IMG/VR virus record: IMGVR_UViG_3300032304_001182
Location: 1-29,466 of that record
DNA: 29,466 bases
Reading direction: 5' to 3' (one strand)
Source: a virus
Below, piece by piece: positions 12,699-29,422 of the stretch. Numbering within the stretch: the stretch's first letter is position 1; each line of letters begins with the position of its first letter. The notes under the pieces were generated by a model that did not search any database, was not told where the DNA came from, and saw nothing but the letters and a program-made list of their open reading frames with translations. A program made the position numbers and the translations under genes.

Positions 12699-14264
12699 TT
12701 ACATATTGTTTTCTGCCCACATTCTTGATACATCGTACACGTTATCAGCGCCAAGGACTGACGGCATATCTTCTCGAGACGGCTCGTTAAAGAATACACC
12801 CGCACCATTGCCGAGCATTGCCAAGTAAGAGTACAAGTCGGCAAATACATAGTGGTCTACCCCCGTAGTAGACGCCCATATATAGCGCTCAATACCCTTA
12901 TTGTTCACCACTTTTTCACGGCGCAGCGTCTCAAAGTGGCGTATATACTCGTTAAAATCCTTATCAGGCTTTGCACCAATAAGCCACTTTGCTTCGATCA
13001 TGGCCGTTAAGAACTGGTCAATAATGCGGTCACGGTGCGAGTACACTATCCCACTTTTGTCTCCCTCACCCCACCAAACAATAGTCTGCGGGTTGTTATT
13101 GTTTTCCTGGAAGAATGACATCTGCATATACGGATACGTTGCCACGTAATGCTTAGCAGACGTATTATCTGGCATTGCGTCAATGACTCCGGCTGTTGGT
13201 TTCCAGTATGCTAGGATGTCGTCAAGCTCCTGCCATGCTGAGAAGCGACCAATCTTCAGAATGCCCCTATCAGAGCGCACAACGTAGTGCTTTATGTTGC
13301 CCACATCAATCCCGATATACCGGTTTCCGGTCGTGTCCAGGTCCTTCGGCGTCCAGATGTCCAGAATCGTGGTCTTCGACACGGAAAGGTCACCAGGCGA
13401 GTAGGGAAGCCCGAGCACAAAGTTGTTAAAGTACGCCGGATCACCCTGCGAGTCCTCAATAATTTCTGCAGCGCTTATCCAACAGCACATAAGGTGCGAG
13501 ATGTGATAGCCAGATATGTCTCTTCCCGGCATTTGCGCCACCCATTTGCCCTGTCTGCGGGTATCGTCTGACAGCGGTGCCTTACACGCACGACACTGGT
13601 AGTACTTTCCTTCTATGTTGATAGAATCTGGCCATAGCAAGTACTGTTCATCACCACAGTGTGTGCACGTTACGGTCCACTCCTTTTGATCGCTCTTACT
13701 CCACGCCAGGTCTAGCTCGTCACGCTCCCCTCCCGGGTTAGAAAACAGCCATCGGCCCTTATATTTGCTTGCTTTTGTACGTGATTTGTACGTTTCAATG
13801 GCCATCTGGTCCGACCGGGATACCTCGTCATGAATGAGTAGGTCTGCGGACGTAGAGATCGGTCCGGTCTTCGATACCGTACCCTTAAAGAAGATAAACC
13901 GGTCGTTTAGCTCCTTTCGCTCGATAGAATCCGTCTCCATGCCACGGAATTCTTCACTATTTGCCTGTAGAATCTTGTTAAACTTCGACCCTACAAACTC
14001 CCGCACGCTGTCGTCCGTTGGGAACGTGTAAATCACGTTAAATCCCATATGTTTCACGGCAAACAAGGTCTTGAGTGAGTAGATAACGGACTTACCCACC
14101 TGCGCACAGGCCATGGTGACCTGGTGCGGAGTGAAGTCAGTCAGAATATCTAGCAGAAACGGTCGATTGTAGTAGTCAAAAGCTTCCGCTTTCTCGGACA
14201 CTATCCCTCTTTCGGTGATCCACTGGAGGATCGAGAAGTATTGTTTACTGGGTGTCTTTGCCAT
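12699..14264 (-). CDS. terL: Terminase large subunit, GpA-like (521 aa)
   Basis: The ATP-driven packaging motor and nuclease. The start is set at 14264 (MAKTPSKQYF), preceded by GGAG 10 nt upstream, rather than the longer frame at 14327 that would run deep into groEL. Motifs, numbered from this start: Walker A AQVGKSV at 54-60; Walker B LLIHDE at 142-147 (D146, E147); coupling motif FSNPGG at 174-179; a zinc-ribbon-like pair C200-x2-C203 and C224-x2-C227, characteristic of the lambda GpA family; nuclease aspartates D320 (YIGIDVG) and D362 (GVIDAMPDN). It overlaps the groEL 3' end by 20 nt, so the two genes are probably translationally coupled. Confidence 0.93.
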   Translation of the reverse strand: MAKTPSKQYFSILQWITERGIVSEKAEAFDYYNRPFLLDILTDFTPHQVTMACAQVGKSVIYSLKTLFAVKHMGFNVIYTFPTDDSVREFVGSKFNKILQANSEEFRGMETDSIERKELNDRFIFFKGTVSKTGPISTSADLLIHDEVSRSDQMAIETYKSRTKASKYKGRWLFSNPGGERDELDLAWSKSDQKEWTVTCTHCGDEQYLLWPDSINIEGKYYQCRACKAPLSDDTRRQGKWVAQMPGRDISGYHISHLMCCWISAAEIIEDSQGDPAYFNNFVLGLPYSPGDLSVSKTTILDIWTPKDLDTTGNRYIGIDVGNIKHYVVRSDRGILKIGRFSAWQELDDILAYWKPTAGVIDAMPDNTSAKHYVATYPYMQMSFFQENNNNPQTIVWWGEGDKSGIVYSHRDRIIDQFLTAMIEAKWLIGAKPDKDFNEYIRHFETLRREKVVNNKGIERYIWASTTGVDHYVFADLYSYLAMLGNGAGVFFNEPSREDMPSVLGADNVYDVSRMWAENNM

Positions 14265-15825
14265 CCTTTTTAGTCTCCACAATAGCCGTCTCGATGCTGA
14301 TAAGGGCTGAAGTAATAGCTGTGGCACTCTCTAGTGCAATTCGGGTGACTTTGAATGGGTCGATGATGCCACAATCAACCATAGAAGCAAGACTTTTTTT
14401 CTTGAAGTCAAACCCAATTACCTCTTTCAAATTCTGTTTTGACACATTGTTCACTAGCCACTCAACACTTGGCTTACTCCACCAGTGCTTTTTTCTAAAC
14501 ATCCCCGCATTTGTCGCCATCTGACGTAGAGGTGCAGACAGAGCTCTTTGAAATATAGGTTCCGATACTTTTAATACAGCAAGCGATGTCCCCCCACCTG
14601 GCAATATGCCCTCCTGTAGTGCTGCCTGCGTTGCGTTGATAGCGTTATCAAACTTGTACTTCTTAGCGTTATATTCCGTGTCTGTGTAGGCTCCGACACG
14701 AATAACACCAATACCTCCCGTCAACTGCGCTAGACGGTCTTCAAGCTGGCCTCGCATGTAGGGAGACGTGGTGCTGTCTATCTCGCCCTGGATACTTGCA
14801 ATACGGGATTCAAGCAGTGGGGAGGCGTTGCCTCCGATAATGGTCGTATTGTGCTGGGTGATAATGGCTTTTTCAGCACGGCCACATAGGGCGCTCGTGG
14901 CCTCGTCTAGGCGCATACCCATCTCCTCCGATATAACGGTTCCTCCAGTGAGCGCCGCCATATCAAACAGGAAGTCTTTGCCTGCGGAAGCGGTGTACGG
15001 GTTGCGTACACACGCAATGTTGGCAACCCTGTTGACGGCATTCTGTGCAAGCGTACCGAGGGCTACGGAGGCCACGTCGTCTGCTATGAAGAGAATATCG
15101 TTGCCGGTGCCGATAGAGTTCAGGAGTGAGAGAATCTGCTCGTTAGTGTTGATTGTGCGGTCTACCAGTACGATATACGGCTCATTAAGTACGGTCTGCT
15201 TGTTCTCTGGGTCGTTGATAAAGTACGGACTGATAAGTCCCTTGTCAAAGCGGGCTCCCTTTACCACTTCGCTGGTGTAGCCTAGCTGTGCGCCTTTCTC
15301 CACCGTAATGACGCCATTGACGCCCACTTCCTTTACCACGTCAGCTATTAGGCGGGCTACCTCTGGGTCTAGTGAGGATATGGTGGCTATGCGCTCTATG
15401 TCGTCCTGTGTGATGTCGCGCTTTAGCTTGGTGAGCTCTGCTAGGGTGTCTACTAGTCCTTGCTGTAGGCGCTCCCGTACCTCGCGGATCTTGCTAGAGT
15501 CGCTGGCTATCTCCTTGAAAGCTTCATGCACCAGTGCCTGGGTAAGTACGGTAGTGGTCGCTGTGCCGTCGCCTCCCTGCTCGGAGGTGCGTAGCCCTCC
15601 TTTACGGAGCATCTGTACACCCATGTTTTCGTACGGGTCTGCTAGGTCTATATTCTTTAGAATCGTGACCCCGTCGTCGCACTCTATAGGATCTAGGCCT
15701 GGGTACTCTATGGCCGCAGTCATGCCTATAGGGCCTAGGGTTGGGCGTACTGCGTCGCATGCCTTGTCTATGCCTGCTTTGATACGTAGACGAGCGGTGT
15801 GTCCTTGAATGATCTCTTTTGCCAT
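14245..15825 (-). CDS. groEL: Phage-encoded GroEL-type chaperonin (526 aa)
   Basis: Clear full-length group I chaperonin, divergent from bacterial GroEL. Equatorial nucleotide motifs are present: TLGPIG at 29-34, D51 (CDDGV), G84-GDGTATTTV with D86, P409-GGG at 410-412, and D489 (CGIIDPFKVTR). At the position of catalytic D398 of E. coli it has N394, preceded by D393 (FDNAINAT). In the apical domain, the GroES/substrate-docking residues L234, L237, L259, V263 and V264 become I231, L234, L256, A260 and Q261. The C-terminal Gly-Gly-Met tail is missing; the protein ends in KKDGKDTQ. Residues 443-480 contain an unusual basic/aromatic stretch (FRKKHWWSKPSVEWL). It would form a folding ring, probably for capsid or other virion proteins. 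It lies between groES-orf67 and terL. Confidence 0.95.
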   Translation of the reverse strand: MAKEIIQGHTARLRIKAGIDKACDAVRPTLGPIGMTAAIEYPGLDPIECDDGVTILKNIDLADPYENMGVQMLRKGGLRTSEQGGDGTATTTVLTQALVHEAFKEIASDSSKIREVRERLQQGLVDTLAELTKLKRDITQDDIERIATISSLDPEVARLIADVVKEVGVNGVITVEKGAQLGYTSEVVKGARFDKGLISPYFINDPENKQTVLNEPYIVLVDRTINTNEQILSLLNSIGTGNDILFIADDVASVALGTLAQNAVNRVANIACVRNPYTASAGKDFLFDMAALTGGTVISEEMGMRLDEATSALCGRAEKAIITQHNTTIIGGNASPLLESRIASIQGEIDSTTSPYMRGQLEDRLAQLTGGIGVIRVGAYTDTEYNAKKYKFDNAINATQAALQEGILPGGGTSLAVLKVSEPIFQRALSAPLRQMATNAGMFRKKHWWSKPSVEWLVNNVSKQNLKEVIGFDFKKKSLASMVDCGIIDPFKVTRIALESATAITSALISIETAIVETKKDGKDTQ

Positions 15826-15827
15826 AC

Positions 15828-16031
15828 TTACTTTTTAGTTGCTAGGGTATAAAGCTTTTTAAGTGTCTTTTTGTCTGGTGAGTGTACGTACTGTACATCT
15901 GCGGGCTGGGGTACGCGTGCCACATAGTCCCCGCCACACTCGCGCTTGGCTATGGTGTAGACCGGGCGCTGGAAAGCCTGGCCGTCTGGTATGCCGTCTA
16001 CGTGTACCGGGGTTAGGTGCTCCGTCTGCAT
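15828..16031 (-). CDS. Unknown protein between groES and groEL (67 aa)
   Basis: Starts MQTEHLTPVHVDGIPDGQAF and ends KTLKKLYTLATKK. It begins 1 nt after the groES stop and ends 2 nt before the groEL start. It has one Cys (AKRECGGDYVARV) and a Pro-rich middle followed by a basic helical C-terminus. No family is recognised. Its position in a chaperonin operon suggests a linked role, but it may simply be a passenger gene. Confidence 0.65.
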   Translation of the reverse strand: MQTEHLTPVHVDGIPDGQAFQRPVYTIAKRECGGDYVARVPQPADVQYVHSPDKKTLKKLYTLATKK

Positions 16032-16032
16032 G

Positions 16033-16299
16033 CTACAAAACGGCTATCACGTCCTCTACTGTGATCACCTTATACTTCTTGCCCTCGTGCTCTATGTCCT
16101 GCGTGTCTGGTGAGTACTTGGCGAATAGGACGGTATCCCCTACCTGTATAGGCTCGTTGGTAGTGGGCACGTAGCCATTGCCTACCTGCTCAACCTTGCC
16201 CTTATTAACAAAGCTGTCCTGCACGTTGACGGTCTGGAAGCCGTCGGCCTTTGGCTCCTCCACTCGTGAGAGTAGCAGGCGGTTGCCTAGTAGTTTCAT
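16033..16299 (-). CDS. groES: GroES-type co-chaperonin (88 aa)
   Basis: Recognised by the beta-barrel pattern MKLLGNRLLLSRVEEPKADG, GKVEQVGNG, IQVGDTVLFAKY and the C-terminal VITVEDVIAVL. At 88 residues it is somewhat shorter than bacterial GroES (about 97). The mobile loop between SR and GKV is about two residues shorter, and the bacterial Ile-Val-Leu tripeptide that docks on GroEL is not evident; GFQTVNV stands in its place. The roof hairpin region is also short (GYVPTTNEPIQ). Together with GroEL it forms a complete phage chaperonin pair, separated by the 67-aa gene. Its start overlaps the upstream Cys-rich gene by 4 nt. Confidence 0.92.
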   Translation of the reverse strand: MKLLGNRLLLSRVEEPKADGFQTVNVQDSFVNKGKVEQVGNGYVPTTNEPIQVGDTVLFAKYSPDTQDIEHEGKKYKVITVEDVIAVL

Positions 16300-28735: not shown

Positions 28736-29422
28736 ATGACTAACGACAAATACAAGCTCATTAAAAGTGATAAGAAATCCTGGGACGGTCAAGAACTATT
28801 CCAGGTAGTAGCTCTCAAAGATTTCGGTTCAGTTTCTAAGGGAGACAAGGGAGGATACATTCAAGCAGAAGCAAACCTCAGTGTGTCTGGCAATGCCTGG
28901 GTGTATGGCAATGCCAGGGTGTACGGCAATGCCTGGGTGTACGGCGATGCCAGGGTGTACGGCGATGCCTGGGTGTACGGCGATGCCAGGGTGTACGGCG
29001 ATGCCTGTGTGTCTGGCGATGCCAGGGTGTACGGCAATGCCTGTGTGTATGGCGATGCCTGTGTGTCTGGCGATGCCAGGGTGTACGGCGATGCCTGGGT
29101 GTCTGGCGATGCCTGGGTGTACGGCAATGCCAGGGTGTACGGCAATGCCAGTGTGTCTGGCGATGCCTGGGTGTACGGCAATGCCAGGGTGTACGGCAAT
29201 GCCAGTGTGTATGGCAAACTAAAACTAGAGGCAGGATTCTTCTTTGGAGTTAAGTGGAGTGGAGAAAAGATACAGGAGATTGAGATAGAAAATGGAAACT
29301 ACCTTATCTACAAAGGTGATGCGAAGTTTGGCACAGACGAGCCTGAAATAGATGATGCAACCGCACAAGCAATGAAACTGCTCCAGGAAAATGGGTACAA
29401 AATTGTAAAAGACTCTAAGTAA
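28736..29422 (+). CDS. Hexapeptide-repeat beta-helix protein (228 aa)
   Basis: The N-terminal 47 residues (YKLIKSDKKSWDGQELFQVV, then ALKDFGSVSKGDKGGYIQAE) match a module found in phage and bacterial repeat proteins. Residues 54-161 are 18 copies of A-(W/R/C/S)-V-(Y/S)-G-(N/D), preceded by a related LSVSGN. Val at i and Ala at i+4 fit a left-handed parallel beta-helix. The C-terminal part (KLEAGFFFGVKWSGEKIQEI and EIDDATAQAMKLLQENGYKI) is alpha/beta. It could be a structural stalk or a catalytically dead LpxA-like fold; no active-site residues are recognised. Confidence 0.8.
   Translation: MTNDKYKLIKSDKKSWDGQELFQVVALKDFGSVSKGDKGGYIQAEANLSVSGNAWVYGNARVYGNAWVYGDARVYGDAWVYGDARVYGDACVSGDARVYGNACVYGDACVSGDARVYGDAWVSGDAWVYGNARVYGNASVSGDAWVYGNARVYGNASVYGKLKLEAGFFFGVKWSGEKIQEIEIENGNYLIYKGDAKFGTDEPEIDDATAQAMKLLQENGYKIVKDSK
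28895..29218 (+). repeat. Array of 18 tandem 18-bp repeats
   Basis: Each unit is GCC-(TGG/AGG/TGT/AGT)-GTG-(TAC/TAT/TCT)-GGC-(AAT/GAT), the final unit ending AAA. Nearly all variation is at three positions; the rest is invariant at the DNA level, including third codon positions. This is typical of recent expansion by slippage or unequal recombination. Confidence 0.92.

Follow-up and report, generated by a model that had tools for sequence, protein, structure and literature searches.

Asp398 is the residue classically used to freeze GroEL in its ATP state; helix M, on closing, carries it over the ATP and thereby ties hydrolysis to the shape of the ring. Asp52 and Asp398 flank the attacking water in GroEL-ADP.BeF3, and K+ is required (PMC10723157). 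The E. coli D398A variant has about 2–3% of the wild-type ATPase activity and still encapsulates and folds its substrates (PMC3813556, PMC3326522). Simulations show Lys51 in weak contact with ATP (PMC3053311); together with Pro33, it contacts Asn153 and Ser154 at the mouth of the pocket upon closure (PMC4828840). Among accessory GroELs of bacteria, the MmoG-type chaperonins of methanotrophs are thought to serve methane monooxygenase. Here we describe a GroEL from a tailed phage in which the position of Asp398 is occupied by Asn, together with a clade of related phages that share this replacement and a bacterial lineage that parallels it.

A phage GroEL with asparagine in place of Asp398

The window, that is, the whole stretch of 29,466 nucleotides that was analysed (positions 1 to 29,466 of IMG/VR virus record IMGVR_UViG_3300032304_001182), encodes both a GroEL and a GroES. 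Residues cited as 51, 90 and 398 follow E. coli GroEL numbering, their window equivalents being D50, A89 and N394. The genes and pocket codons discussed below are the following:

12699..14327, minus strand: terminase large subunit, 3' of groEL; PF05876, phrog_675
14245..15825, minus strand: groEL (Cpn60), 526 residues, tailed phage; Pfam PF00118 at 135 bits, phrog_5725 at E 1e-110
16033..16299, minus strand: groES (Cpn10), 88 residues; PF00166 at 41 bits
15676..15678, minus strand: codon GAC for D50, at E. coli K51; a gained Asp, covarying with N394
15673..15675, minus strand: codon GAC for D51, at E. coli D52; kept
15568..15570, minus strand: D86, at E. coli D87 (Mg ligand); kept
15559..15561, minus strand: codon GCG for A89, at E. 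coli T90; Ala throughout the clade
14647..14649, minus strand: codon GAT for D393, at E. coli E397; varies (D, E, Q or V)
14644..14646, minus strand: codon AAC for N394, at E. coli D398, in helix M
14359..14361, minus strand: D489, at E. coli D495 (ribose contact); kept

Consistent with the preliminary description, which had placed N394 on E. coli Asp398 without gaps, a multiple alignment with the GroEL of E. coli MG1655 brings these two residues together. In phmmer alignments with three solved group I chaperonins, including that of Thermus, FDNAINATQAALQEG falls gap-free on FEDALNATRAAVEEG, and no gaps occur from helix M into the GGG motif. Direct reading of the coding strand confirms the codons GAT (D393) and AAC (N394), and the other nucleotide-binding residues that had been listed as kept are indeed present (D51, D86, GGG and D489 in the window, corresponding to E. 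coli D52, D87, G414–416 and D495). Two departures in the pocket had been overlooked, however: E. coli K51 is D50 in the window, and T90 is A89. An AF2 model of the window GroEL (pLDDT 81.6) shows a helix spanning residues 382–405 that contains N394, as expected for helix M; residues 46–49, directly before D50, have pLDDT values below 50. The matches returned by a Foldseek search with this model are all GroEL or Hsp60 (TM 0.56–0.72).

The groES gene, a 67-residue ORF, groEL and the terminase large subunit gene are consecutive, with groES two ORFs upstream of groEL, and are followed by the genes for the portal and the major head protein. This groES–groEL–terminase–portal order is kept in almost all clade loci, and the terminase adjoining groEL in relatives (55–75% identity) identifies the phage lineage at the loci of the clade and of its sisters alike. 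The location of groES and groEL within a head and packaging cluster suggests a service in head assembly, the probable role of the phage chaperonin, judged by gene position, being the folding or assembly of head proteins. Retention of groES across the clade argues against a decaying gene. The mobile-loop region of the clade GroES (approximately GFQTVxVQDxFxYKGK, versus GGIVLTGS in E. coli) is altered, which suggests a lid that may have co-evolved with GroEL. The 67-residue ORF between groES and groEL (15828..16031, minus strand) has no family match. The terminase ORF is taken here from its first GTG, and its true start may be an ATG near 14262; the terminase would then appear to start, in a different frame, within the 3' end of groEL (14245..14327, minus strand), an overlap that suggests possible translational coupling. 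Elsewhere in the window, positions 28736..29422 (plus strand) encode a 228-residue protein with hexapeptide-like repeats (VYGDARVYGNAWVSG) that belongs to a PHROG family of unknown function (E 2e-66).

Conservation of Asn398 within the phage clade

Asn398 is present in all 29 distinct GroELs of the window clade, where it is encoded by AAC in 16 and by AAT in 13, and the same 29 sequences without exception have Asp51 and Ala90. Relatives in IMG/VR that are 58–72% identical to the window GroEL likewise all have Asn. Within the clade, 129 of the 548 alignment columns (about one-quarter) are invariant, so that invariance by itself is moderate evidence; an invariant Asn combined with synonymous codon change points to selection on the amino acid.

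Among about 109 readable GroELs of a viral sample, which was picked by a motif containing neither position 51 nor position 398, Asn398 occurs in three, and all three belong to the window clade. A scan of viral contigs for Asn398 retrieved 25 contigs, in which every readable pocket is that of the window clade and has Asp51 and Ala90. Because the Asn398 scans accepted only acidic residues at 397 and only Ala at 399, some Asn398 genes are missed: four clade phages with Gln397 or Gly399, outside this pattern, were recovered by the scan for Asp51. An alignment of phage GroELs at this position, proposed in the preliminary description as a check, sets a uniform Asn in the clade against Asp398 in all named phages inspected (EL, phi38:1, immuto, DAC22, a crAss-like phage, Vibrio phages and others). 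The isolated phages of INPHARED include no member of the clade, their best match being 36.7% identical, which marks the clade as uncultured. No prophage of the window clade was found among the 104 Asn398 stretches from cellular genomes that are described below.

Asp51 precedes the loss of Asp398 in the phage lineage

An independent scan of viral contigs for Asp51 recovers the window clade together with GroELs that combine Asp51 with Asp398. Three of the latter (L313, L316 and L311) are sisters of the clade, with 51, 49 and 40% identity to the window GroEL, respectively. The terminase adjoining their groEL is 55–62% identical to that of the window, a matching portal occurs at two of the three loci and a groES likewise at two; the common terminase and portal indicate that these sisters belong to the phage lineage of the window. 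In a tree built with the trait (pocket) columns removed, the Asn398 phage clade has support values of 100/100, its grouping with L313 and L316 of 100/98 and the further grouping with L311 of 100/100. The nesting of the Asn398 clade within sisters that have both aspartates places Asp51 first and D398N second. The simplest history is a change from Lys or Asn to Asp at position 51, followed by D398N along with T90A; A85G, A96T and G159A fall on the same branch. The reverse order is less simple because it needs repeated reversions. A separate phage lineage outside that of the window (L106, L305, L310 and L317) also has both Asp51 and Asp398, and the retention of Asp398 in these phages despite Asp51 counts against the relocation of the catalytic carboxylate that we propose below.

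The same pair in Paceibacteria

When 84,980 species genomes were scanned for Asn398, 104 stretches matched. In one lineage of Paceibacteria (Nealsonbacteria-type), all 12 Asn398 GroELs have Asp51, while sampled relatives in the class have Asn51 with Asp398 or, less often, Lys51 with Asp398. On the tree the 12 lie nested among Asn51/Asp398 relatives. Judged from these sequences, Asn and Asp have traded places between positions 51 and 398 in Paceibacteria. The Asp51/Asn398 GroEL is the sole PF00118 gene in each of the 12 genomes, which have one PF00166 gene (groES) nearby on the same contig. Across 286 genomes of the class, the Asp51 pattern and the Asn398 pattern have one match each, in the same gene, that of the centre genome. 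A small genome (L222) within the Paceibacteria part of the tree has Asn at both positions and three chaperonin matches.

Derivation of the window clade from the Paceibacteria GroEL is rejected, as both trees keep the two apart. The Asp51/Asn398 state needs two origins, a single origin being found in 0% of bootstrap trees, and these gene phylogenies show that the pair arose independently in the phage clade and in the Paceibacteria lineage. A claim of coevolution would here have just two independent occurrences of the pair behind it, which is few.

Asn398 chaperonins with other residues at position 51

The remaining cellular Asn398 genes have Lys, Arg, Asn or His at position 51 and are carried by methanotrophs (MmoG-like genes), Planctomycetota, Desulfobacterales and others. 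At least two chaperonins are present in 30 of 30 and 21 of 25 such genomes (51 of 55 together), and the best other chaperonin copy sampled beside the Asn398 paralogues is usually Lys51/Asp398. Of the four single-copy cases, two are partial genes, one is a Methylobacter MAG, apparently incomplete, and one is a WWE3 genome (G328). This last is an intact counterexample, whose sole GroEL (L249), encoded beside groES, has His51 and Asn398 and apparently represents a real, further independent loss of Asp398 in a sequence lacking Asp51. A rule that Asn398 always needs Asp51 is thus rejected, both by the many accessory copies and by the sole-copy WWE3 genome. The contrast in copy number between Asp51/Asn398 and other Asn398 genes (Fisher p 3e-10) is descriptive only, since the genomes are phylogenetically non-independent and the value depends on phylogeny and genome size; the copy counts themselves rest partly on MAGs, which may be incomplete.

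Four Planctomycetota loci (L172, L204, L210 and L234) have adjacent GroEL genes on one contig, one with Asp398 and one with Asn398, pairs that look as though one copy had specialised. The accessory GroELs of methanotrophs (L184, L188, L211 and L232 among them), to which we tentatively give the label MmoG, judging by their hosts and by published work, combine Arg51 with Asn398. Chaperonins of the MmoG type probably differ in ATP hydrolysis, a property of which we found no mention in the literature consulted.

Proposed relocation of the catalytic carboxylate

With the attacking water located between Asp52 and Asp398, and with Lys51 either in contact with ATP or closing the pocket, position 51 lies in a suitable region for a part in hydrolysis. 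We propose, with a probability of roughly 0.5, that the window GroEL is a working group I chaperonin in which the carboxylate of the catalytic site, formerly on helix M, now lies in the stem loop. D50, adjoining D51 (E. coli D52), would supply the second carboxylate, the two aspartates together holding or activating the water for its attack on the gamma phosphate, and N394 would keep helix M hydrogen-bonded to the closed pocket. Once an Asp is present at 51, Asp398 would become dispensable; ATP would still be hydrolysed, perhaps at an altered rate and perhaps with a changed dependence on K+, Thr90 also being lost. In a pocket so rewired, closure of helix M would no longer deliver the catalytic acid. 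Such a relocation accounts for the order of events, for the parallel case in Paceibacteria and for service as sole chaperonin. However, Lys51 has been described at Asn153 and not at the attacking water, so that the side chain of residue 51 may face away from the gamma phosphate. The WWE3 GroEL with His51 and the repeated appearance of Asn398 in paralogues lacking Asp51 also count against the relocation. More tentatively, the relocation might be a second way of building the hydrolytic site, in which the carboxylate of Asp398 can be moved to position 51, independently in phages and Paceibacteria and, in phages, via an intermediate with both aspartates, to give full ATPase activity.

Alternatively, a ring with N394, and with Thr90 lost, may act as a slow timer that binds ATP and GroES and hydrolyses slowly, long encapsulation being suited to one round of head-protein folding and D50 contributing only to the electrostatics or charge balance of the pocket. 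The preliminary description had raised the possibility of slower hydrolysis, a fair concern given the residual ATPase of E. coli D398A, which nonetheless encapsulates and folds (PMC3326522, PMC3813556). The cluster of changes on the D398N branch (T90A, A85G, A96T and G159A) is in line with such a machine, as is the frequency of Asn398 among accessory GroEL copies, where a slow, specialised chaperonin is plausible. Yet a crippled enzyme is less likely, because all 12 Paceibacteria genomes with the Asp51/Asn398 GroEL have it as their sole chaperonin, and a new Asp that predates the loss of Asp398 looks like compensation rather than decay. A slow timer is, on this evidence, possible but somewhat unlikely.

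We consider it improbable that Asn simply suffices, with D51 (E. coli D52) alone acting as the base, the amide of N394 positioning the water and D50 being incidental. The many lineages in which Asn398 is accompanied by Lys, Arg, Asn or His at 51, one of them with such a protein as its sole copy (the WWE3 genome), would fit this explanation, but these GroELs are nearly all second copies, and position 51 is an invariant Asp in both lineages that have the Asp51/Asn398 pair.

Takeover of catalysis by the adjacent D393, which had also been suggested, is very improbable and is not borne out by the alignment. Although D393 is acidic and adjoins N394, its column is Glu397 in E. coli, so that an acid there is ordinary, and within the clade it varies (Asp in 17, Glu in 9, Gln in 2 and Val in 1) while Asn398 is fixed; the members with Gln or Val contradict the takeover unless they are inactive. 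One residue along a helix moreover corresponds to a turn of about 100 degrees, which also counts against D393. Finally, although GAC and AAC differ by a single base, an error of sequencing or assembly, or a misalignment, is refuted by the agreement of 29 distinct sequences that use both Asn codons and align gap-free on both sides.

A natural lineage devoid of Asp398, with an intermediate in sister phages and a parallel in single-chaperonin bacteria, provides proteins that allow one to ask what Asp398 serves, chemistry or coupling.

Comparison with known chaperonins

The group I chaperonin family is defined by homology and fold, not by residue 398. The window GroEL shows this homology in its match to PF00118, and its best PDB matches and the fold search are all group I; at the gene level it has a GroES partner, encoded nearby and kept across the clade, and its nucleotide pocket contains the equivalents of D52, D87, GGG and D495. 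The usual signature of the catalytic Asp398 is absent, N394 and its clade counterparts being Asn throughout. The window clade appears to be a variant not previously described within group I chaperonins: in a search of the open literature, which takes in few subscription journals, no account of a chaperonin with D398N or K51D/D398N was found.

E. coli GroEL and the window protein (about 36% identity) share the fold, a GroES partner gene and D52, D87, T89, T91, GGG and D495, whereas K51, T90 and D398 of E. coli are Asp, Ala and Asn in the window, and the segment before the C-terminal helix is changed. The GroEL homologue gp146 of phage EL is likewise phage-encoded but is only about 25% identical to the window GroEL, does not interact with E. 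coli GroES and keeps both K51 and the catalytic Asp (Asp412; PMC7185714). Paralogues of the MmoG type in methanotrophs also have Asn398; unlike the window GroEL, which has Asp51 and is encoded in a phage head cluster, they have Arg (sometimes Lys) at 51 and are accessory copies beside a normal Asp398 GroEL. The Paceibacteria GroEL shares the complete Asp51/Asn398 pair, separately evolved and there part of the sole groESL of the cell, but it keeps Thr90, its relatives are mostly Asn51/Asp398, and it lies distant from the phage clade on the tree.
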